The notes beneath the pieces are model-generated. The model was given only the letters and a program-made list of their open reading frames with translations, did no database searches and was not told where the DNA came from. The translations under genes were made by a program, and so were the position numbers. From the NCBI GenBank assembly GCA_029262055.1, contig JAJDAD010000066.1, positions 1 to 60,440 on the forward strand: DNA of 60,440 nucleotides, written 5' to 3'. Source of the stretch: Candidatus Zhuqueibacterota bacterium. GTDB taxonomy: Bacteria; Zhuqueibacterota; Zhuqueibacteria; Oceanimicrobiales; Oceanimicrobiaceae. Shown piece after piece: positions 8,078-25,161 of this stretch. Position 1 is the first letter of the stretch; every line of letters begins with the position of its first letter.

Positions 8078-9088
8078 ATGAGCATTTACATCTATGGCAT
8101 TATCGAGACTAATCAGGCTGAACATTTCGGACCTATTGGAATCGGTGGGCGTGGCGATGCGGTTACCACCCTGCATTTCAAAGACATCGCAGCAGTGGTC
8201 AGCAACCACCCGGTCGTTGAATTTGACCGGTTTGCAGAAAATGAACTAAAGGAGCTTGTGGCTGCTCATCAATTGGTAAATGAAACCGTGATGAAAAGCT
8301 TTGGCGTGGCGCCGCTGAGCTTCGGTAATATCGCGGAGAGTGAGGAAGAGGTCATAAGAATGTTGCAGCATGCTTACATACAATGCAAAACCATGCTCAA
8401 CAAAGTAAAGGAAAAAGTTGAATTGGTTGTGCAGGCCTTTCGCAACAAACAAGATTGGATACAAGAAATTGCCAATACAAACGAACAGATTATCAAACTG
8501 AAGAATGCTCTTGACTCCGGTTCTGAGGCTGACAATCTAATGGCAAGGATTGAAATTGGCAAAGGCATCCATCAAGCCATTTCCTCTAAGGAAAGAGCCT
8601 TTTGCGATGATGTTCTTTCTATACTGAGAAACGGCAGCTGCCACTTTGCTGCCGGCAAATTGCACGGTGAAGACATGATCTTCAACGGCTCCTTTCTGGT
8701 GGACCCCCAAAGCGAATCCGCATTTGATCAAAAGGTTGATCGATTGGGCCATAGATATGAAGGACAGCTTACTTTTAGATATATCGGCCCCCTGCCGCCT
8801 TACAGCTTTGCCAACCTGAAACTCACGTCAAGTGATTTTGAGCTAATTGATGCCGCCAGAAGAATTCTGGTACTTCCCGATAAAGCAACAGTGAGCGAAA
8901 TCAAATCCGCATATCGAACTTTGGCCTGCCAGTACCATCCGGACAAGAGTCATGACAACCCTGAAGCGGAAGAAAAATTCAGACTGGTGACAGAAGCACA
9001 CCAGGTGCTGGAGACCTTTTGTCAAAACTACAAATTCTCTTTCAGCGAAGAAGTTGTAAGGGATACGGTTCTGATCGATGAGGCTTAG
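8078..9088 (+). CDS. GvpF/GvpL-family protein fused to a C-terminal J domain
   Basis: 336 residues. Residues 1 to about 258 are a GvpF/L domain. It opens with SIYIYGIIE, has the AAVVSNHPV segment, a central helical part with MARIEIGKGI, and the closing YIGPLPPYSFANL block typical of the family. Residues about 265-330 are a DnaJ J domain: helix 2 'SEIKSAYRTLACQYHPDKS' carries the diagnostic HPD tripeptide and is followed by helix 3 'EEKFRLVTEAHQVL'. GvpF/L proteins bind GvpA and seed assembly. A J domain normally stimulates Hsp70 ATPase. The fusion would therefore couple vesicle nucleation to Hsp70. A normal GvpF/L ends near residue 260, so the J domain is an addition. The next gene starts 3 bases later. 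Confidence 0.9.
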   Translation: MSIYIYGIIETNQAEHFGPIGIGGRGDAVTTLHFKDIAAVVSNHPVVEFDRFAENELKELVAAHQLVNETVMKSFGVAPLSFGNIAESEEEVIRMLQHAYIQCKTMLNKVKEKVELVVQAFRNKQDWIQEIANTNEQIIKLKNALDSGSEADNLMARIEIGKGIHQAISSKERAFCDDVLSILRNGSCHFAAGKLHGEDMIFNGSFLVDPQSESAFDQKVDRLGHRYEGQLTFRYIGPLPPYSFANLKLTSSDFELIDAARRILVLPDKATVSEIKSAYRTLACQYHPDKSHDNPEAEEKFRLVTEAHQVLETFCQNYKFSFSEEVVRDTVLIDEA

Positions 9089-9091
9089 GAA

Positions 9092-9862
9092 ATGAGAAAG
9101 ACGGGTAAGTACATTTACTGTGTTACTGATGCGGGCAACAAGCCGGACTTCACTTCCGGGAGTATCGGCAAGACGCCTTCGCAAGTGTTTGGTATTCACT
9201 ATAACTCTATTGCGGCAGTGGTCAGCGACTCTCCCGTCGTGAGTTATTCCCTGAAAAGCGAAAATTACCTGGCACACCAGCGCGTGGTTGAGGAGGCGAT
9301 GGCAAAGAATCTAACTGCGCTGCCCGTACGTTTTTGCACCATCGCCAGAGATGAGGCCAGCGTGCGGACAATCTTGGAAAAAAGATATGATGAGTTTCAC
9401 GAAAACTTGAGCGCCATGAAGGGAAAACTGGAATTGGGTCTGAAAGTGTTTTGGAATGATGAAGTCGCATACCCCGAAATCCTTCGTGAGAATGACAACA
9501 TCAAAAAGATGAGGGATCGAATCGTTTCGCAGCCACAGGAAAATACTTATTTCGAAAGAATTGAAATCGGGAAATTGGTGGAAATTGCCCTCCAGGAAAA
9601 GCGGCAGCGGGAAGAAGAAGAAATCTTGAGCATGTTCCATCATCTTTACCTCGACCACCGGACTAACAGGATTATCGGTGACAGGATGATCGTTAACGTT
9701 GCTTTTTTGGTAGATGAGAAACAGGAAAAGTTGGTTGATGAGGCGGTAGAGAAGCTGGCAAAAGCAAATGATGGACGGTTAAAACTTAGTTACGTTGGCC
9801 CGATTGCTCCCTACAATTTCATCGAAGTGACCATCGATGTGACAGAGTTGGGGCTCAATTAA
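9092..9862 (+). CDS. Gas vesicle protein GvpF/GvpL
   Basis: 256 residues, standard for GvpF/L. It begins KYIYCVTDAG, contains IAAVVSDSPVVSY, then LPVRFCTIARD and FERIEIGKLVE, and ends YVGPIAPYNFIEVTI, all family landmarks. No extra domain. It is the second of three paralogues in the operon, lying 3 bases after the J-domain fusion and 17 bases before gvpG. GvpF/L members bind GvpA monomers and help initiate or chaperone wall assembly. I do not split F from L because the sequence alone does not decide it. Confidence 0.93.
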   Translation: MRKTGKYIYCVTDAGNKPDFTSGSIGKTPSQVFGIHYNSIAAVVSDSPVVSYSLKSENYLAHQRVVEEAMAKNLTALPVRFCTIARDEASVRTILEKRYDEFHENLSAMKGKLELGLKVFWNDEVAYPEILRENDNIKKMRDRIVSQPQENTYFERIEIGKLVEIALQEKRQREEEEILSMFHHLYLDHRTNRIIGDRMIVNVAFLVDEKQEKLVDEAVEKLAKANDGRLKLSYVGPIAPYNFIEVTIDVTELGLN

Positions 9863-9879
9863 TCTCTGAGATAAGACGT

Positions 9880-10125
9880 ATGGCTTTCCTGCTTGATGAT
9901 ATAATAGCTTTGCCCTTCTCTGGTGTGTGGGAGATTGTCAAAGAGCTGCACAAATATGTGGACAGAGAGCTGAATGACAAAGAAACCTGGCAAAGAAAGC
10001 TGTTGGAGCTACAACTGAAATATGAGCTGAACGAAATCGATGAAGATGAATATAAGGTGCGGGAAGAAGAAATAGTAGAAAAAATCACCGCCATACAGGA
10101 AAGCGAGGGAGAAACGGTAGAGTAA
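9880..10125 (+). CDS. gvpG: Gas vesicle protein GvpG
   Basis: An 81-residue, strongly acidic helical protein, the size of GvpG. The first 25 residues (AFLLDDIIALPFSGVWEIVK) match the GvpG N-terminal signature, and the remaining charged helix (ERQ/KWQRKLLELQLKYELNE type) contains 'EIDEDEYKVREEEI', the usual GvpG C-terminal block. GvpG interacts with GvpF/L and GvpA during nucleation. It sits between two gvpF/L genes, the normal arrangement in bacterial clusters. Confidence 0.9.
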   Translation: MAFLLDDIIALPFSGVWEIVKELHKYVDRELNDKETWQRKLLELQLKYELNEIDEDEYKVREEEIVEKITAIQESEGETVE

Positions 10126-10178
10126 GATCAGTCAATGATTCCTGGCCATAAAAGAAATCATTCAACTAGGCAGATTCC

Positions 10179-11012
10179 ATGACACGTAATTCTGGCAACA
10201 ACAATAGGGGCATTTACCTTTATTGCGTTACAGAAGCGACAAACTCACTCCCTCCACTCCGAGGCATAGATGACAACTTTACGACTTTTCAAATAAAAAC
10301 TAAGCCACTCGCCGCATTGGTAAGCGAAGTGCCGTTAGATGCCTTTACCGGCCGGACTTTCCGCACTAAATTGCGTGACTTGTCCTGGGCAGAATCAAAA
10401 TTAAGAGCTCACGAAGCATGTGTGCGAGCGGCAAAAGACAGCGGCTCGGTCCTGCCTATGCGGTTTGCTACCATTTTCTCATCGGAAACCGAACTAAAAG
10501 AATGGCTTGAACAAACTGAGAATCGTTTGACCACGCTGCTACAGTATTTTCAACACAAAGAAGAGTGGGGCGTGCAAATCATTTGTCACAAAAAGGAATA
10601 TCTGTCACAGATTCGCCATGTGCAAAACCCGGAAATTAAAGCAATCGATGCGCAGCTCGTTAACCAGACTCCGGGACAGGCCTTCTTCTTGACCAAGAAA
10701 AAAGAACAAAAACTCGATGCCCTGCGGGAGTCGATTTTGACCGAGGCCTGTCAAGAACTGAATTCACAATTGGACCGAATCGCAATAAAAAAAGTCGACC
10801 TGGATGTATCCAGATCCGGTGAATCGCAAGATGAGCAACAGCTTGTTCTCAATACTTCTTTGCTGATTGAAGAGACTTCGGTTGGTCGTCTTCAGGATAT
10901 GGTGGGTTCTTTCAACGAAGCACCAGCAGTCAGAGGTTTGAGGGCAAGATATACAGGGCCCTGGTCACCATATAATTTTGTAAGCGCGTTGCAGCCGTCC
11001 GATGTACTGTGA
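10179..11012 (+). CDS. Gas vesicle protein GvpF/GvpL (third paralogue)
   Basis: 277 residues. GIYLYCVTEA at the N terminus, LAALVSEVPLDAF, VLPMRFATIFSSE and the closing RYTGPWSPYNFVSAL mark the GvpF/L family. The middle is more diverged than in the two upstream paralogues and lacks their IEIGK motif, having FFLTKKKEQKLDAL instead. Its 3' end overlaps the following gvpA-family gene by 11 bases, implying translational coupling. Three F/L proteins in one operon suggests specialised subunits of the assembly complex. Confidence 0.92.
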   Translation: MTRNSGNNNRGIYLYCVTEATNSLPPLRGIDDNFTTFQIKTKPLAALVSEVPLDAFTGRTFRTKLRDLSWAESKLRAHEACVRAAKDSGSVLPMRFATIFSSETELKEWLEQTENRLTTLLQYFQHKEEWGVQIICHKKEYLSQIRHVQNPEIKAIDAQLVNQTPGQAFFLTKKKEQKLDALRESILTEACQELNSQLDRIAIKKVDLDVSRSGESQDEQQLVLNTSLLIEETSVGRLQDMVGSFNEAPAVRGLRARYTGPWSPYNFVSALQPSDVL

Positions 11013-18836: not shown

Positions 18837-19685
18837 TCACTCAAATAGTTGCCTGTAGAAAATACGATCCACCCATCTCGCGGGCATGTACTTGACAAAC
18901 AGCACGGTCGGTAACCAGTTCTTATTAACGATGAAACTTAGTCTGGTTCTTCTCCGGGTCAGTATTTTGTGAATGAGTTTTGATATTACCGCTGCCGGAA
19001 GCGCCCTGCGTTCGGCATTTTTCATTATTTTGTTGGCACGGCCCATCAATTTCCCATATTCCGTGTCGTAGTATTCTTCATATTTATCGATGTTCTTATC
19101 CCACAGTTTGGACTCGATCGGGCCTGGCTGAATGGAAACGACGTCAATGTCATACATCATCAACTCTCGTCTGTAGATCTCCGCGAGACTTTCCATTGCG
19201 TGCTTTGAAATGCAATAGGCGCCATTAAAAGGTGTGTTGAATACACCGGAAATGCTGCTTATCATGATTATTTTTCCACCGCTTATATTATTCTCTTTAT
19301 CTCCTTTGAGAAGCGGCAGGAAAACATTTGTCACATTTCTTACAGCAAATAAATTCACCTCCATCTGACAACGAAATTTTTCGTCATCCATGAGTTCTAT
19401 GGGACCGCCGAGTGCGAGGCCGGCATTGTTTACGAGTCCACTGAGTTTGTTGCCGGACAGTGTTTCTGTGACAATTTCAAAGGAAGTTCTGACCTGATCG
19501 GTCCTGGTTACATCGAACTCCAGACAGGTAAAGTTCTTAGGAAATTGCGCAGACACGCGGACGGCATCACTGCTTTTCTTGACACTTCCAAAGACGTGAT
19601 ACCCTCTGTCAATCAGGTAGCGCGCTGCATCATTGCCAATTCCTGTTGATACTCCTGTAATGAGAACGTATTCTTGCTGCGACAT
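18837..19685 (-). CDS. Short-chain dehydrogenase/reductase (SDR)
   Basis: 282 residues. Cofactor motif TGVSTGIG at 10-17, NNAG at 86-89, catalytic Ser in MISSISG at about 144, and Y157-x3-K161 (YCISK). PGPIES after the active site is also typical of classical SDRs. C-terminal residues 225-282 (ILTRRRTRLSFIVNKNWLP) resemble the tail of retinol-dehydrogenase-like SDRs acting on hydrophobic substrates. It is the last gene of a minus-strand operon and starts 2 bases after the unknown gene upstream. The substrate is unknown; the neighbouring molybdopterin enzyme suggests a joint redox pathway. Confidence 0.92.
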   Translation of the reverse strand: MSQQEYVLITGVSTGIGNDAARYLIDRGYHVFGSVKKSSDAVRVSAQFPKNFTCLEFDVTRTDQVRTSFEIVTETLSGNKLSGLVNNAGLALGGPIELMDDEKFRCQMEVNLFAVRNVTNVFLPLLKGDKENNISGGKIIMISSISGVFNTPFNGAYCISKHAMESLAEIYRRELMMYDIDVVSIQPGPIESKLWDKNIDKYEEYYDTEYGKLMGRANKIMKNAERRALPAAVISKLIHKILTRRRTRLSFIVNKNWLPTVLFVKYMPARWVDRIFYRQLFE

Positions 19686-19687
19686 GA

Positions 19688-20395
19688 TTACAATGTTCTC
19701 TTGATGTGCCCAATGTAGGATGACTCCAATTCCTGGATAAGCGACTTGTAAGCCGGTGAATCGAGCATCCTGGATATCTCAAGCTCCGTGTCAGATTCGA
19801 ATAATACCAGGCCATCCATCAGGTTGGGTACTTGTTTGGGTGGATCGGAGTTTTGCTGACTAAACAGTTGCGCGACCATGGCTCCTGCATATTTCACCCT
19901 CACCTTGTCTCCCAGTAGATCATTGAACTTTGAGAAGAGAGAGTCACCAGTTTTAGACGATTTGAAATGATGTACCGCATAACATAAACCATCGTTCACG
20001 CTGCTGGCATCGTTTAGAATTCGCTGTTGGGTAAAGCCAAAGGAGAAGTCCTTCACAGCCATGATCCGAAGAATACTCACGATCTTGAAGTAAGTCGTCT
20101 GCAACAAGGCCTTGAAACTTTGACCGCCAGGATATCGAACAATTAAAATGAGATCTCTTGCTACATTCTTTTCATCAAGAACGGTTTTGGTTATCTTAGC
20201 TTTGAAGAAGGCTCTGCCACCAACTTTTGCAAGACTTTTGGCGGCCATGAAATTATAAAGATGATAAAGCCATTCTACTTTTGTGGAAAACCAGTTTATG
20301 GCATATAGTGGTTCGTTCAAATCTACATTTGCAGCATTAGCTTTGATCAGGACTTTGCTGGATGTAGAAATACTGCACGTTATGTCGTTCGTCAT
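19688..20395 (-). CDS. Uncharacterised protein between molybdenum oxidoreductase and SDR
   Basis: 235 residues, no signal peptide or membrane segment evident. The only notable stretches are the predicted amphipathic LYHLYNFMAAKSLAKVGGRA (about 45-65) and a C-terminal YKSLIQELESSYIGHI. I recognise no family. It is tightly packed: 2 bases after the molybdopterin enzyme and 2 bases before the SDR, so it is almost certainly a functional partner of one of them. Confidence 0.8.
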   Translation of the reverse strand: MTNDITCSISTSSKVLIKANAANVDLNEPLYAINWFSTKVEWLYHLYNFMAAKSLAKVGGRAFFKAKITKTVLDEKNVARDLILIVRYPGGQSFKALLQTTYFKIVSILRIMAVKDFSFGFTQQRILNDASSVNDGLCYAVHHFKSSKTGDSLFSKFNDLLGDKVRVKYAGAMVAQLFSQQNSDPPKQVPNLMDGLVLFESDTELEISRMLDSPAYKSLIQELESSYIGHIKRTL

Positions 20396-20397
20396 AT

Positions 20398-22581
20398 TTA
20401 TTCCGCCTTTGGGGTTGCTGTTGTAGAAGATTTAATGCTTACAACCTGGCCGGAGAAAGCCGCATTGCCCGTTACCGGGTCCAGGCGATTGTGGTCGGTT
20501 ATGTCATTCACGGAAACACCTGCATTTCCCGGTTTGGTGGCGACATCGAGTCGCGTGCCCTCCTTTTTGTGGCCGAATCCGTGCGGAATACTCACCACGC
20601 CGGGCATGATTTTGTTTGTAATCTCGACCGGGATATCGATGCTCCCGGTTTGCGAGCTGACGGTGACGCGCTGGTCATCGACGAACTGCAGTCTTTCTGC
20701 ATTGTCCGGATGAATCATGGCAGTGCATCTGTTCTTACCCTTCATAAGTGCTGCCGTATTGTGCATCCACGAATTGTTGTTTCGAAGATGCCGGCGGCCT
20801 ATCAGAAGAAACTGGTCCCGATCAAGAGATTGATAGGGATGTTCACTGAGCTCCGTCTTTACCTTGTCCAGGCCATTCAGAAAAACATCATCTGCGATAT
20901 TGATCTTGCCATCAGCCGTTAACAGTACTTCCGGTATCCTAGGCTTCAGCGGTCCCAGGCTTATTCCGTGCGTAGAGTCGATGACTTTCTTCAGACTCAG
21001 GCCGGAAAACCACCTTTTGGGATGGCTTAGTTTGCCATAGGGTCCGGTCAGAAGACCTAGGTTGAGCAACTGTCTCGGTGTAAGCCATTGATAGAGTTTA
21101 GAAGGCTGCTTTCGTGAAATGCTGGCAAAGCGCTTGATCAATTCCCTGGCTATTTGCCAGTCGTACATCTGACCCTTTTCAGGTTGAAATAAGGGCTCCG
21201 AGAATTTGACATTATCACTGACTGCGAGCAAGTTGAAGATAAGGTCATAATGCTCGATTTCCAGGTGCGACGGCGGCGGCAGGATGATATCCGCGTGTCT
21301 GGTTGTCTCGTTCATGAAGATATCGACGGCAACCATGAAATCCAGTTTTGGCAATGCCTGCTCCAGTCGCTTGCCATTCGGCGAAGATAGAACCGGGTTG
21401 CCGGCATTGGTAATAAGCGCTCTGATCTGGCCTTTTCCCGGGGTCAGCATTTCTTCGGCCATGGCAGATACCGGCAGCTCTCCATCAAACTCCGGTAGTC
21501 CTCTGACCCGGCTCTGCCAGCGCTTATGTGCTTTATGAAACTTCTTTTTTCGCTTTATGTCAAAGGCCGGCGTCGTAAACATAGCGCCACCGGGCTTGTC
21601 GAAATGGCCTGTCAGGATATTGATCACAGCGGACAGCCAGTGACATAATCCGCCATGCTCTTGTGTCGACATGCCCATACGTCCGTAGAGAACGGCCTTA
21701 TCGGCCAAAGCATATTCTTTGGTAATGCGCCGCAGAACGTCTTCTGGAACCCCGGTGATTTTTGCCACACGTTCCGGAATAAATTCTATAGCAAGGTCTT
21801 TGAGTTTGTCCAGTCCGGTAATGTGATTCCCAAGGTTTCCAAGTGCAGTCCAGTTTTCCTTCTGGATCAGGTGCAGTATCCCCAACAGGAAGTACACATC
21901 CGTATTTGGCTTGACAAAATGATGCTCATCTACGACTCTGCTTGTTTCGTTCTCCCGGGGGTCAAACTGTATGACTTTGCCACCTCTTTTCCGGATATCC
22001 ATCAATCGCCCGTGGACCCCGGGGGCACTCATCAAGCTACCATTCGATGCCAGCGGGTTGGCTCCGAAAATGACCATGTATTCCGTTCGGTCGATGTCAG
22101 GGATGGGAATATTGAGTGAGTGCCCAAACATGTAATATGCCATGAAGTGATGCGGCAGTTGGTCCATGCTGGTAGGAGAGAAAGAGTTCCGCGACCCCAG
22201 CATGCGTTTCATTTCGCCCGCCAGCATCATCATGCCGAAATTGTGTACCGTCGGATTTCCCAGATACAACCCAACGGCATTATCGCCATACTCTCTTCTC
22301 ACCTGGTTGATTCTGTTGCCCACAATGTCGAAAGCGGCTTGCCAGTCAATCTCTTCCCATTCGCCATCCCCCTTTTTTCTCAGGGGTCTTTTTAGCCGGT
22401 TGGGATCACTATGTAGTTCATGGATAAGTGCCCCCTTGGGACAGATGCTGCCTTTGCTCAGGGGATCGTTTTGATCTCCCTTGACCGATTGCACGGTTTG
22501 CCCGTCATGCACGATCTCCAGACCACACATGGCTTCGCAGAGGTTGCAAACCCGGTAGTGTTTTTGCAATTTCATAGACAT
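20398..22581 (-). CDS. Molybdopterin-dependent oxidoreductase
   Basis: 727 residues. The N-terminal 4Fe-4S site is C12-x2-C15-x3-C19 ... C47 (CNLCEAMCG ... ICPKG), followed by the bis-molybdopterin-guanine-dinucleotide binding core (YLGNPTVHNFG, VIFGANPLASN, FDPRENETS) and the C-terminal dinucleotide domain (LIGRRHLRNNNSWMHN, IPHGFGHK). No twin-arginine signal is present, so the enzyme is probably cytoplasmic. The length fits the formate-dehydrogenase/assimilatory-reductase-like group. The residue that would ligate Mo cannot be fixed by eye (around PTSMDQ). Its substrate is unknown. It lies in an operon with two small membrane proteins upstream and an unknown gene and an SDR downstream. Confidence 0.92.
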   Translation of the reverse strand: MSMKLQKHYRVCNLCEAMCGLEIVHDGQTVQSVKGDQNDPLSKGSICPKGALIHELHSDPNRLKRPLRKKGDGEWEEIDWQAAFDIVGNRINQVRREYGDNAVGLYLGNPTVHNFGMMMLAGEMKRMLGSRNSFSPTSMDQLPHHFMAYYMFGHSLNIPIPDIDRTEYMVIFGANPLASNGSLMSAPGVHGRLMDIRKRGGKVIQFDPRENETSRVVDEHHFVKPNTDVYFLLGILHLIQKENWTALGNLGNHITGLDKLKDLAIEFIPERVAKITGVPEDVLRRITKEYALADKAVLYGRMGMSTQEHGGLCHWLSAVINILTGHFDKPGGAMFTTPAFDIKRKKKFHKAHKRWQSRVRGLPEFDGELPVSAMAEEMLTPGKGQIRALITNAGNPVLSSPNGKRLEQALPKLDFMVAVDIFMNETTRHADIILPPPSHLEIEHYDLIFNLLAVSDNVKFSEPLFQPEKGQMYDWQIARELIKRFASISRKQPSKLYQWLTPRQLLNLGLLTGPYGKLSHPKRWFSGLSLKKVIDSTHGISLGPLKPRIPEVLLTADGKINIADDVFLNGLDKVKTELSEHPYQSLDRDQFLLIGRRHLRNNNSWMHNTAALMKGKNRCTAMIHPDNAERLQFVDDQRVTVSSQTGSIDIPVEITNKIMPGVVSIPHGFGHKKEGTRLDVATKPGNAGVSVNDITDHNRLDPVTGNAAFSGQVVSIKSSTTATPKAE

Positions 22582-22589
22582 GGCGTTGG

Positions 22590-22952
22590 TTACAGTGAAA
22601 GATATTTGGTCAGTAATAGACTAAGACATAAGCCCAAAGAGATATAGCACATGGGTGTACCCGAACCGGTGCGAGGACAGATCACTTTGCCGGATAATTC
22701 CGTCACGGTTCCTACCAAAGCAATCAAAGCGGGGACAGCCACAAGTCCAAAGTACGCTTGATTGCTCACCGGAGTATTGAGATAGTGAGCGACACCTGCT
22801 GCCAGGAAGAATGCAAAAACGATATAGCAGGCAGGCATGCCAAGTATTTTTGGGCAAATGTCCTTCTTCTTCCAGTCCTTTCTGGAGAGATTGCCAGAGC
22901 CGGTAATGGCAAATGCCAGTATGACGACGGTTACCCAATACATGAGAGTCAT
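22590..22952 (-). CDS. Four-helix membrane protein with duplicated CP..GxPxCY motif
   Basis: 120 residues, four predicted membrane helices. Two copies of a cysteine-pair motif, CPKILGMPACY (about 33-43) and CPRTGSGTPMCY (about 92-103), each sit just before a membrane helix (IVFAFFLAAG; ISLGLCLSLLL). The two halves look like an internal duplication. A related gene at 23183-23566 has the same design. The paired cysteines suggest metal binding or thiol redox at the membrane surface; this is inference. It starts 8 bases before the molybdopterin enzyme. Confidence 0.85.
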   Translation of the reverse strand: MTLMYWVTVVILAFAITGSGNLSRKDWKKKDICPKILGMPACYIVFAFFLAAGVAHYLNTPVSNQAYFGLVAVPALIALVGTVTELSGKVICPRTGSGTPMCYISLGLCLSLLLTKYLSL

Positions 22953-23182
22953 AATGATTTAATCACTTGTTGTTGCTATGATGAATGACAATCCTCACTT
23001 CAGCATTTGTGACCGTGCAGACCCGGATCCTGAGTTTGGCGAAGTAGTAGCGATTCCTTCTCTCGCCTAAACCCTCGTTGCTTCCTTAAATCTCCCGAAT
23101 CCCTCTGCGTCATTTACGTCTCTGTGTGAGACAAGGGTTTGACATTTCCTCATTAACGCAGAAGTATAATGAATCATACGTT

Positions 23183-23566
23183 CTATTTAGAGCCTTTGTC
23201 AAGCACACGATAGAGCACAAAAACCAGTACGCTCACTGCCAAAGACAAATAGCATAAGGGAAATCCTGAATCGCTCGTCGGGCAGCTATCTCCCTTGATG
23301 ATTTCCAGCAGAGTGCCCAGGACAGCAATCAAAAAGACGACTAGCCATCCCGCCAGAAACATCTTGTTGCTGTTTCTTTTGCAGAGCCCGGTTTGGCTGA
23401 CAATCATTGCCAAATATCCGGCGGCCACCACAAAGCAAATTGGCAATCCCTTAAGATCGGGGCAGGGAGCTGTCCCGGTAATGGTGGTGTAAGACACAGA
23501 GAGAGCGCCATACAGCCCGATGGCTAGCAGAAGCCAAAGGGCTGCACGGCTGAATTGTATAATCAT
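23183..23566 (-). CDS. Four-helix membrane protein with duplicated CP..GxPxC motif (paralogue)
   Basis: 127 residues, four predicted membrane helices. It carries CPDLKGLPICF (about 35-45) and CPTSDSGFPLCY (about 94-105) in the same positions as the paralogue at 22590-22952, including the following LSLAVSVLVF helix. The stop of the FG-GAP gene and the ATG of this one share one base (TAATG), so translation is coupled. A gap of about 230 bases with no gene separates it from its paralogue. Confidence 0.85.
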   Translation of the reverse strand: MIIQFSRAALWLLLAIGLYGALSVSYTTITGTAPCPDLKGLPICFVVAAGYLAMIVSQTGLCKRNSNKMFLAGWLVVFLIAVLGTLLEIIKGDSCPTSDSGFPLCYLSLAVSVLVFVLYRVLDKGSK

Positions 23567-25161
23567 TAGAATTGGACCGTCGTATTGTTGAAACTGCCTT
23601 GACGCGACTCCTGAGTGCCGTCAAGATAGGTCACACTGACGTCCGTTGCCTCGCCATTGCCGAGACCAAAAATCTGAACGTGTGATTGGTCTGAACACAG
23701 GCCCTCGCCGGAAACATGATCCCGGAAAAGAACCTTCCCGCCGACTAGTGTGACGGCAATCTTAGCGCCTATCGATTTGATGTTATCCGGCAACTTGACC
23801 TTCAAATAGCCTGCGTCGCCGCCTTTGTTCATGAATACTTTGGATGCACCGGAGATATTTATATGTACCAGGTCAGGGTAGCCGTCATTATTGAAGTCAG
23901 CCGTTATTGGCGATAGTCCAAAACTGTGGTTGACAACACCGCTCTCCTTACCGGTTTCAGCAAATTCGCCGGTGTTTGTCTGTATCAGAAGACGTCCGGG
24001 AAGTCTCAGGAAGAACAGCTTATATGCCGGCAAGCCAATGTAGTTTTCCGAAACCACCAAATCATCGAGGCCGTCCAGGTTGAAGTCTTCGAAGATCGCT
24101 CCCCAGGAGAACTCATAATCCGCCACTTTGACTTCCTCCGCCACGTCCTCAAACGTAAAGCCGCCTTTGTTTTGGAACATAATCCACTTGCGGTTGAACT
24201 CCTGGTCATCGCGCAGATCGCCCCTGACGAGCAAATCCGGGGGACTGCTACCTATGTTAGAAAAGAAGAAATCCACCAGGCCGTCATCTTGATAGTCTGT
24301 GACGGCAATACCCATGGGATAGCTGTACTGTTCTGAATTCGGGTTGGGCATGTTTTCGAACTTCAGGTCACCGAGGTTCTTCCAGGTGCGGATTTGTCCT
24401 GTGTCGTGCGCGACTACCAAATCTTCGAGATAGTCTCCGTCCATGTCTACAAACACGCCCATAAAGGTATTGTGTTTGTAAGTCATGCCGGACGATTCGG
24501 TAATGTCGGTGAAAGTATTGTCGCCATTATTGAGCAGCAACAGACTGCTACCGCCATAGCCCTCTTTGTTAAAGATATTCTGGCCTTCCACCAATTCTTT
24601 TCTGATATACCCGGCCATAAACATGTCGAAATTACCGTCACGGTTGAGGTCAGCAATCCCGACGGACAGGGGGGATGTGTCTGCCGGAATGGGGAGATCC
24701 AGTTTCCGGGCAGTGAAGCGACTGCCATCGTTCAGGTAAAGCCAGACACCATTGGTACGCGAGACAATCAGATCTGAATAGCCGTTGTTGTCGGTATCAA
24801 CAACGGACGCACCAAAGGTCGCATCCGCCAATTCAGGTTTCTCAATAATACCGGCGTCGAGCAGTTGAAACGCACCGTCACGATACTCGAAGATGACGTC
24901 TTCCTGTCCCGGTCCGCCGCCGAGAAAAAGCTCTTCGGCGCCGTCACCGTTGACGTCGATGACTGCGCTTGCGGCAAACGGCAGAGACTCGGAGTCTTTA
25001 AGCTCCTGTTCCCAACCCAGAACGATCTCGGAAAATTCCGGCACCGTAATCCCCTCTGTAGAAACGTCGTAGTCTATCCGCTTGTCCAGGGTGAAGCGGG
25101 TGATCACCATCGTCAGAATAACAACGACAAGAATGACCGGTACAAATAGTAGTTTTTTCAT
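23566..25161 (-). CDS. FG-GAP/VCBS repeat protein (CRTAC1/ASPIC-UnbV type)
   Basis: 531 residues. An N-terminal membrane anchor or signal (LLFVPVILVVVILTMVIT) is followed by about seven FG-GAP/VCBS blades with calcium-loop Asp motifs (DVNGDGAEELF, DTDNNGYSDLIV, DLNRDGNFDMF, DMDGDYLEDLVV, DYQDDGLVDFFF, DFNLDGLDDLVV, DFNNDGYPDLV), a beta-propeller. The C terminus has the ASPIC-like VTYLDGTQESRQ end. It is probably periplasmic or surface located. It is the first gene of the operon leading to the molybdopterin enzyme. Confidence 0.9.
   Translation of the reverse strand: MKKLLFVPVILVVVILTMVITRFTLDKRIDYDVSTEGITVPEFSEIVLGWEQELKDSESLPFAASAVIDVNGDGAEELFLGGGPGQEDVIFEYRDGAFQLLDAGIIEKPELADATFGASVVDTDNNGYSDLIVSRTNGVWLYLNDGSRFTARKLDLPIPADTSPLSVGIADLNRDGNFDMFMAGYIRKELVEGQNIFNKEGYGGSSLLLLNNGDNTFTDITESSGMTYKHNTFMGVFVDMDGDYLEDLVVAHDTGQIRTWKNLGDLKFENMPNPNSEQYSYPMGIAVTDYQDDGLVDFFFSNIGSSPPDLLVRGDLRDDQEFNRKWIMFQNKGGFTFEDVAEEVKVADYEFSWGAIFEDFNLDGLDDLVVSENYIGLPAYKLFFLRLPGRLLIQTNTGEFAETGKESGVVNHSFGLSPITADFNNDGYPDLVHINISGASKVFMNKGGDAGYLKVKLPDNIKSIGAKIAVTLVGGKVLFRDHVSGEGLCSDQSHVQIFGLGNGEATDVSVTYLDGTQESRQGSFNNTTVQF

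Follow-up and report, generated by a model that had tools for sequence, protein, structure and literature searches.

A rare family of internally duplicated four-helix membrane proteins with conserved cysteine pairs, found in a molybdenum operon and in a conserved three-gene cassette

The window analyzed here is a stretch of 60,440 nucleotides from a Candidatus Zhuqueibacterota genome. On its reverse strand, two small neighboring genes encode membrane proteins with paired cysteines next to a gene for a molybdopterin oxidoreductase, which raises the question of what these proteins do and whether the enzyme is their usual partner. The initial annotation read them as twin paralogs of an internally duplicated redox or metal-handling family that might connect the enzyme with the membrane.

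Two small genes with paired cysteine motifs

Gene A (positions 22590..22952, reverse strand) encodes a protein of 120 amino acids and belongs to what we call the molybdenum-operon type; gene B (23183..23566, reverse strand) encodes a protein of 127 amino acids and belongs to the cassette type. Both are four-helix membrane proteins with two cysteine pairs, as judged for A from its open reading frame and a structural model and for B from its open reading frame and comparison with the family. Direct reading of the sequence confirmed the annotated four cysteine pairs, with two copies per protein of the motif CP-x(3,5)-G-x-P-x-C-(Y/F). In A these are CPKILGMPACY (residues 33-43, 22824..22856) and CPRTGSGTPMCY (residues 92-103, 22644..22679), and in B they are CPDLKGLPICF (residues 35-45, 23432..23464) and CPTSDSGFPLCY (residues 95-106, 23249..23284), all on the reverse strand.

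Searches with A and B of Pfam, NCBIfam, PHROGs, PADLOC and the PDB sequences retrieved no relative, and a profile search of the PDB for the family gave no match. Viral contigs, searched with the family profile, and plasmids, searched with A as the query, contained no relatives, which gives no hint that the genes come from a phage or a plasmid. A sigma-70-like promoter match between B and A (TTGACA-18-TATGAT, 11 of 12 consensus positions, 23173..23202, reverse strand) suggests that A may start its own transcript, separate from that of B, although promoter-like sites show no excess across the whole region (9 found vs 7.8 expected by chance). Elsewhere in the window (8078-11012), three consecutive genes with the starts IYGIIE, YIYCVTD and YLYCVTE resemble, by eye, gas-vesicle GvpL/GvpF genes.

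A rare family that keeps its cysteines

Profile and genome searches gathered a family of 27 sequences, including A and B, that spans five phyla (KSB1/Calditrichota, Vibrio, Rhodothermota, Bdellovibrionota and Bacteroidota). Its distribution is rare and patchy. Counting in each case the central genome of the search, members occur in 4 of 82 genomes of the window's phylum, 4 of 395 evenly drawn Bacteroidota genomes, 9 of 396 genomes of one Bacteroidota order and 2 of 58 genomes of another phylum. Of the 27 members, 26 retain all four cysteines, and the prolines that follow both first cysteines are present in every member, as are C33 and C42 of A. The one departure is a solo member (L095:5266-5658) in which the first cysteine pair is intact and the second has been lost entirely, with the flanking prolines still in place. 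According to the initial annotation, unconserved cysteines in members lying mostly away from redox genes would speak against its reading; the cysteines proved to be conserved, while the neighborhoods described below gave a mixed outcome.

A and B are indeed related, but the description of twin paralogs understated the split between them. They share only about 28% identity and fall on opposite sides of a branch with 100/100 support. In this tree A is grouped with Bacteroidota proteins, and B with proteins from KSB1/Calditrichota, Vibrio, Rhodothermota and Bdellovibrionota. A and B are thus distant relatives that were brought together, and not the products of a recent duplication. The closest rows to A are two Bacteroidota copies that also lie in molybdenum operons, suggesting transfer of the operon from one phylum to another. 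For this horizontal origin the tree is the sole evidence, since base composition has no visible GC step around A.

The two halves of the protein are homologous

We compared profiles of the N-terminal and C-terminal halves using hhalign. They aligned with a score of 45.9 (probability 96.7%, E 4e-10) along a stretch that covers the cysteine hairpin together with the helix that follows. As a control, we made 100 column shuffles that kept the hydrophobic/polar classes of the columns; these scored 10.0 on average (sd 2.4, maximum 18.5), and none of the 100 reached 45.9. The alignment of the half-profiles thus bears out the internal duplication that had been proposed, and by this measure the halves are homologous.

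A conserved cassette with FG-GAP/UnbV and DUF6796 genes

Gene B overlaps by one base a gene (23566..25161, reverse strand) for a 531-aa FG-GAP/UnbV_ASPIC propeller protein with an N-terminal hydrophobic anchor, identified as the partner of B from its domains and neighborhood. A gene of this FG-GAP/UnbV type adjoins the small gene or lies one gene away in 20 of the 27 members, B included. For 17 of these 20, the cluster also contains a gene for DUF6796 (PF20599). The three genes form a new conserved cassette, which occurs in four gene orders (DUF-FG-4TM, FG-DUF-4TM, 4TM-FG-DUF and 4TM-DUF-FG) with mostly <100 bases between genes or with overlaps. That the linkage is kept despite the reshuffled order is strong evidence of shared function. 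Both the family and the cassette were previously undescribed and unnamed, and our literature search found no paper on DUF6796 or on the three-gene cassette.

Several loci depart from the standard arrangement. In the window's genome, DUF6796 is on a different contig from B, and in genome G004 the cassette is interrupted by contig ends. A VTT/DedA-type gene sits between the FG-GAP gene and the small gene in L093 and L094 (the domain was scanned in L093). At L097/L129 (G641:C96), the small gene of the cassette is truncated to an 81-aa open frame that ends behind the first TM-Cys-TM module. The window's genome (G000) has 17 stretches that match FG-GAP, and the one at 23566-25161 is the only one of the cassette type.

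Cysteines are few in the propeller partner (0-2), and outside Bacteroidota no pair of them is conserved, which makes it a less than obvious substrate for thiol exchange. We considered disulfide transfer from the small protein to its FG-GAP partner and regard it as unlikely for the same reason. For DUF6796, structure prediction gave a helical bundle, and the fold search was uninformative, its best matches at Z 7-10 being designed helical barrels and folds like that of rhodopsin.

The molybdenum operon of gene A

Gene A is separated by 8 nt from the molybdopterin oxidoreductase gene (20398..22581, reverse strand), whose 727-aa product has an N-terminal Fe4S4 domain and is assigned as the partner of A from domain and neighborhood evidence. 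Two further conserved genes follow on the same strand, completing the order A, molybdopterin oxidoreductase, 235-aa protein, SDR. The third (19688..20395) encodes the 235-aa protein, which is of no known family and is recognized by the conservation of its neighborhood, and the fourth (18837..19685) encodes a short-chain dehydrogenase/reductase (SDR), supported by domain and neighborhood evidence. No export signal is visible in the molybdopterin oxidoreductase by inspection. Among solved structures, its nearest relatives are, at low similarity, thiosulfate reductase and formate dehydrogenases.

The identical four-gene order is found in genome G613 (L089/L099) and is repeated in G1121 (L100) as far as the contig extends. 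In two other loci (L105 and L113), the enzyme is 66-67% identical and the genes for the 235-aa protein and the SDR are present; both contigs end before the position of A. Among the loci examined, the small gene is missing beside enzymes with 57-60% identity (L101-L104) or less, and also beside the relative of the enzyme from the window's own class (L060, G012:C3). In that last locus, a gene for a 153-aa protein, DUF1330-like by eye, takes the place of the 235-aa gene after the enzyme.

The association of the small gene with the molybdopterin enzyme is therefore genuine within a single subclade of the enzyme and missing outside it. It holds for A, whose operon recurs in the two Bacteroidota genomes, and does not hold for B. 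As a rule for the family we reject it, because it applies to 3 of the 27 members, against the 20 that are linked to FG-GAP, and because enzymes about 60% identical or less occur without the small gene.

Redox genes of several kinds recur next to the small gene or the cassette in several independent loci. They include an NDH-2-like flavoprotein (L090), a glutaredoxin-thioredoxin-reductase fusion (L092), a 2Fe-2S flavin reductase (L089) and a desaturase-reductase fusion (L075, and L076 by the similarity of its start). In L027, and in the same way in L026, a Pyr_redox gene and one for an Fe-S membrane protein directly precede the small gene. This pattern across several lineages is suggestive only, being a post hoc observation in which the neighbors differ between lineages, and a count of its enrichment is biased because nearby genes themselves served as queries. 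In several lineages, a TPP enzyme with a Rieske domain was also seen close to either the cassette or the molybdenum operon (L022, L019 and L089); the one in L022 has CDGSH and Fer4_19 domains too. In the window's genome, a relative adjoins the stray DUF6796 gene (L035, G000:C42).

Charge patterns predict opposite orientations

The orientation of a membrane protein can be predicted, though not measured, from its charges by the positive-inside rule. Under three loop definitions, we computed the K+R bias of each protein as the count on the other side minus the count on the cysteine side. The three molybdenum-operon copies have a bias of -4 to -6, whereas the median for the 20 cassette copies is about +3 to +5; two of the latter (L024 and L028) are slightly negative to zero. 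The two groups differ with a Mann-Whitney p of 0.0006, a value that ignores kinship in the tree. Since the three molybdenum-operon copies are close kin, the charge inversion may be a single event.

Read with the positive-inside rule, these biases predict that the cysteine loops of B are outside, where its anchored propeller is expected, and that those of A are cytoplasmic, where the molybdopterin enzyme and the SDR are expected. EmrE/SMR and DUF606 are examples of membrane proteins with inverted topology. Families of this kind are the subject of a mini-review (PMC3962082). Like them, A and B are relatives with opposite predicted orientation that are neighbors in one genome. What differs here is that the predicted orientation goes with the operon of the partner, that the two neighboring copies belong to different branches, and that A and B have no sign of forming an antiparallel pair.

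The predicted fold resembles VKOR and DsbB

An AlphaFold2 model of A, built with 14 sequences, has a mean pLDDT of 93.9 and a pTM of 0.85, and agrees with the four helices that had been annotated (residues 3-29, 41-58, 61-86 and 101-119). In this model each cysteine pair flanks a short hairpin, both pairs are on the same membrane face, and the second cysteine of each pair is at the N-terminus of the next helix. The top match of the model in a Foldseek search of the PDB was the VKOR of Synechococcus (4nv5; TM 0.74, probability 1.00, with a weak E of 0.12), and the second and third ranks were other VKOR entries. Alignment with VIA-align gave Z 11.1 for VKOR (rmsd 2.6 over 114 residues; VKOR entries at Z 10-11) and Z 9.5 for DsbB (2zuq). 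Unrelated four-helix bundles tie with VKOR in Z, so the resemblance is our best lead and not proof of kinship.

Sequence comparison gave no such lead. The family aligned to six VKOR proteins with an hhalign probability of 0.24%, in a test that also fails to link VKOR with DsbB. Profile comparisons with VKOR and DsbB, with the halves in native and in swapped order, gave no signal; this test is insensitive, because VKOR and DsbB do not detect each other in it. Two of the 27 members match the Pfam DsbB family (PF02600), with a best E of 0.0017. We take these matches as background, since unrelated membrane families score equally well or better.

VKOR carries its active-site CxxC where TM4 begins (human Cys132/Cys135), and it has been suggested that VKOR and DsbB are circular permutations of one another (PMC4555120). 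The family resembles VKOR in its predicted four-helix bundle, for which VKOR is the best structural match, and in the location of its two cysteine pairs on one membrane face, the first in the TM1-2 segment and the second at the N-terminal end of TM4. Moreover, C33 and C42 of A are spaced similarly to Cys43 and Cys51 of the VKOR loop between TM1 and TM2. It differs in that its TM4 pair is C-P-x8-C in most members and not CxxC (as seen in A, B and the alignment), that its halves are recognizably homologous, and that it is ~120 aa long with far shorter loops, no thioredoxin domain and no sequence similarity found.

DsbB likewise has four helices with cysteine pairs in the loops between helices 1-2 and 3-4, and the epsilonproteobacterial DsbI joins a DsbB-like membrane domain to a periplasmic beta-propeller (PMC4460558). 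The helix number and the segments holding the pairs are the same in the family, but its first pair is C-P-x7-C, with no CxxC in the first loop. Its FG-GAP partnership echoes the propeller of DsbI, except that the propeller is in all loci a separate gene of the FG-GAP/UnbV type, with no fusion.

Discussion

We prefer, with a probability of roughly 0.38, a reading in which these small proteins act as thiol/disulfide carriers in the membrane, with a shape like that of VKOR and DsbB and an orientation suited to the partner. The four-helix bundle would be built from two equivalent units, each a cysteine hairpin between two TM helices, and would carry electrons by thiol/disulfide exchange with a partner on the cysteine face; a quinone inside the bundle might perhaps also exchange electrons. 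In the B form, the cysteines would point outward, and the protein would work with DUF6796, itself a membrane protein, and with the FG-GAP propeller anchored in the membrane. In the A form, the protein would be inverted, with its cysteines towards the cytoplasmic molybdopterin oxidoreductase and the SDR, and would couple or tether the molybdopterin enzyme to the membrane. The annotated proposal that these proteins link the enzyme to the membrane is thus possible for A, given the missing export signal of the enzyme and the charge pattern of the loops, and cannot be the general role of the family.

We favor a carrier because of the apparently cytoplasmic cysteines of A and the redox neighbors. 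The retention of the cysteines in five phyla, the homologous halves, the VKOR match of the model and the VKOR/DsbB-like cysteine placement also suggest it, as do the cassette, the molybdenum operon and the difference in charge bias. Against it stand the missing CxxC, which is the defining motif of VKOR and DsbB, and the absence of sequence or profile similarity to either protein in comparisons too insensitive to link these two with each other; in addition, the loci of the family share no conserved DsbA-like partner. The family, its duplication, the conserved cysteines, the predicted fold, the cassette, the operon and the difference in charge are established by computation, whereas the thiol chemistry, the quinone contact, the actual orientation and physical contacts with the partners are inferred from sequence, predicted structure and gene neighborhood. 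A redox role is likely, though short of proven.

The chief rival is a scaffold, in which disulfides within each loop lock both hairpins and the protein serves as a non-catalytic partner that anchors or assembles FG-GAP and DUF6796 or, for A, the molybdopterin enzyme. It is favored by the cysteine-poor propeller and by the member that has lost one pair jointly while keeping the other, a loss that fits structural disulfides at least as well as it fits a carrier. The short hairpin flanked by each pair in the model of A is consistent with it, the tight cassette in its many gene orders points to a complex, and the fold comparison gave almost equally high scores to connexin and TARP four-helix proteins, whose disulfides are structural. 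However, stable disulfides would be unusual if the loops of A are cytoplasmic, as their charges predict, yet A keeps all four cysteines. Redox enzymes recur next to the small gene, and near-absolute conservation of the pairs at about 25% identity exceeds what most structural disulfides need. On balance, we consider the scaffold a serious but somewhat doubtful explanation.

It is unlikely that the four cysteines are a metal or cofactor site that binds zinc, iron or copper for metal handling or single-electron passage. Their conservation on one face, the internal repeat and the Fe-S and molybdenum enzymes nearby would fit such a site. But there is no CxxC or CxC knuckle, no histidine or methionine is conserved alongside the cysteines, and the exceptional member retains one pair only. 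Foldseek did match the model of A to copper storage proteins; this match is weak, and their cysteine layout is different.

Less likely still is a thiol:quinone oxidase of the DsbB/VKOR type that forms periplasmic disulfides by oxidizing an unlinked DsbA-like protein, a role which would suit the shared helix count, cysteine placement and fold class and the DsbI-like pairing of membrane domain and propeller (PMC4460558), but which is at odds with the lack of CxxC, with the lack of a conserved DsbA-like gene nearby, with a patchy distribution unlike that of a housekeeping disulfide system and with the apparent inversion of the molybdenum-linked copies.

In a more speculative reading, the family is a living example of a duplicated, ancestor-like state of the VKOR/DsbB superfamily (two TM-Cys pair-TM modules that can still be recognized), with its orientation inverted between the operon of the cytoplasmic molybdopterin enzyme and the external propeller complex. 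We hold this to be improbable. If the fold relation to VKOR and DsbB does reflect homology, the clear internal repeat would bear on the origin of that superfamily, and if our reading of the orientation is right, A and B would be a clean natural test of a change of side with the active residues kept. The recurrence of an unnamed family and an unnamed three-gene cassette in five phyla means that a conserved membrane process has gone unannotated, and DUF6796 and the cassette-type FG-GAP protein gain a functional neighbor.
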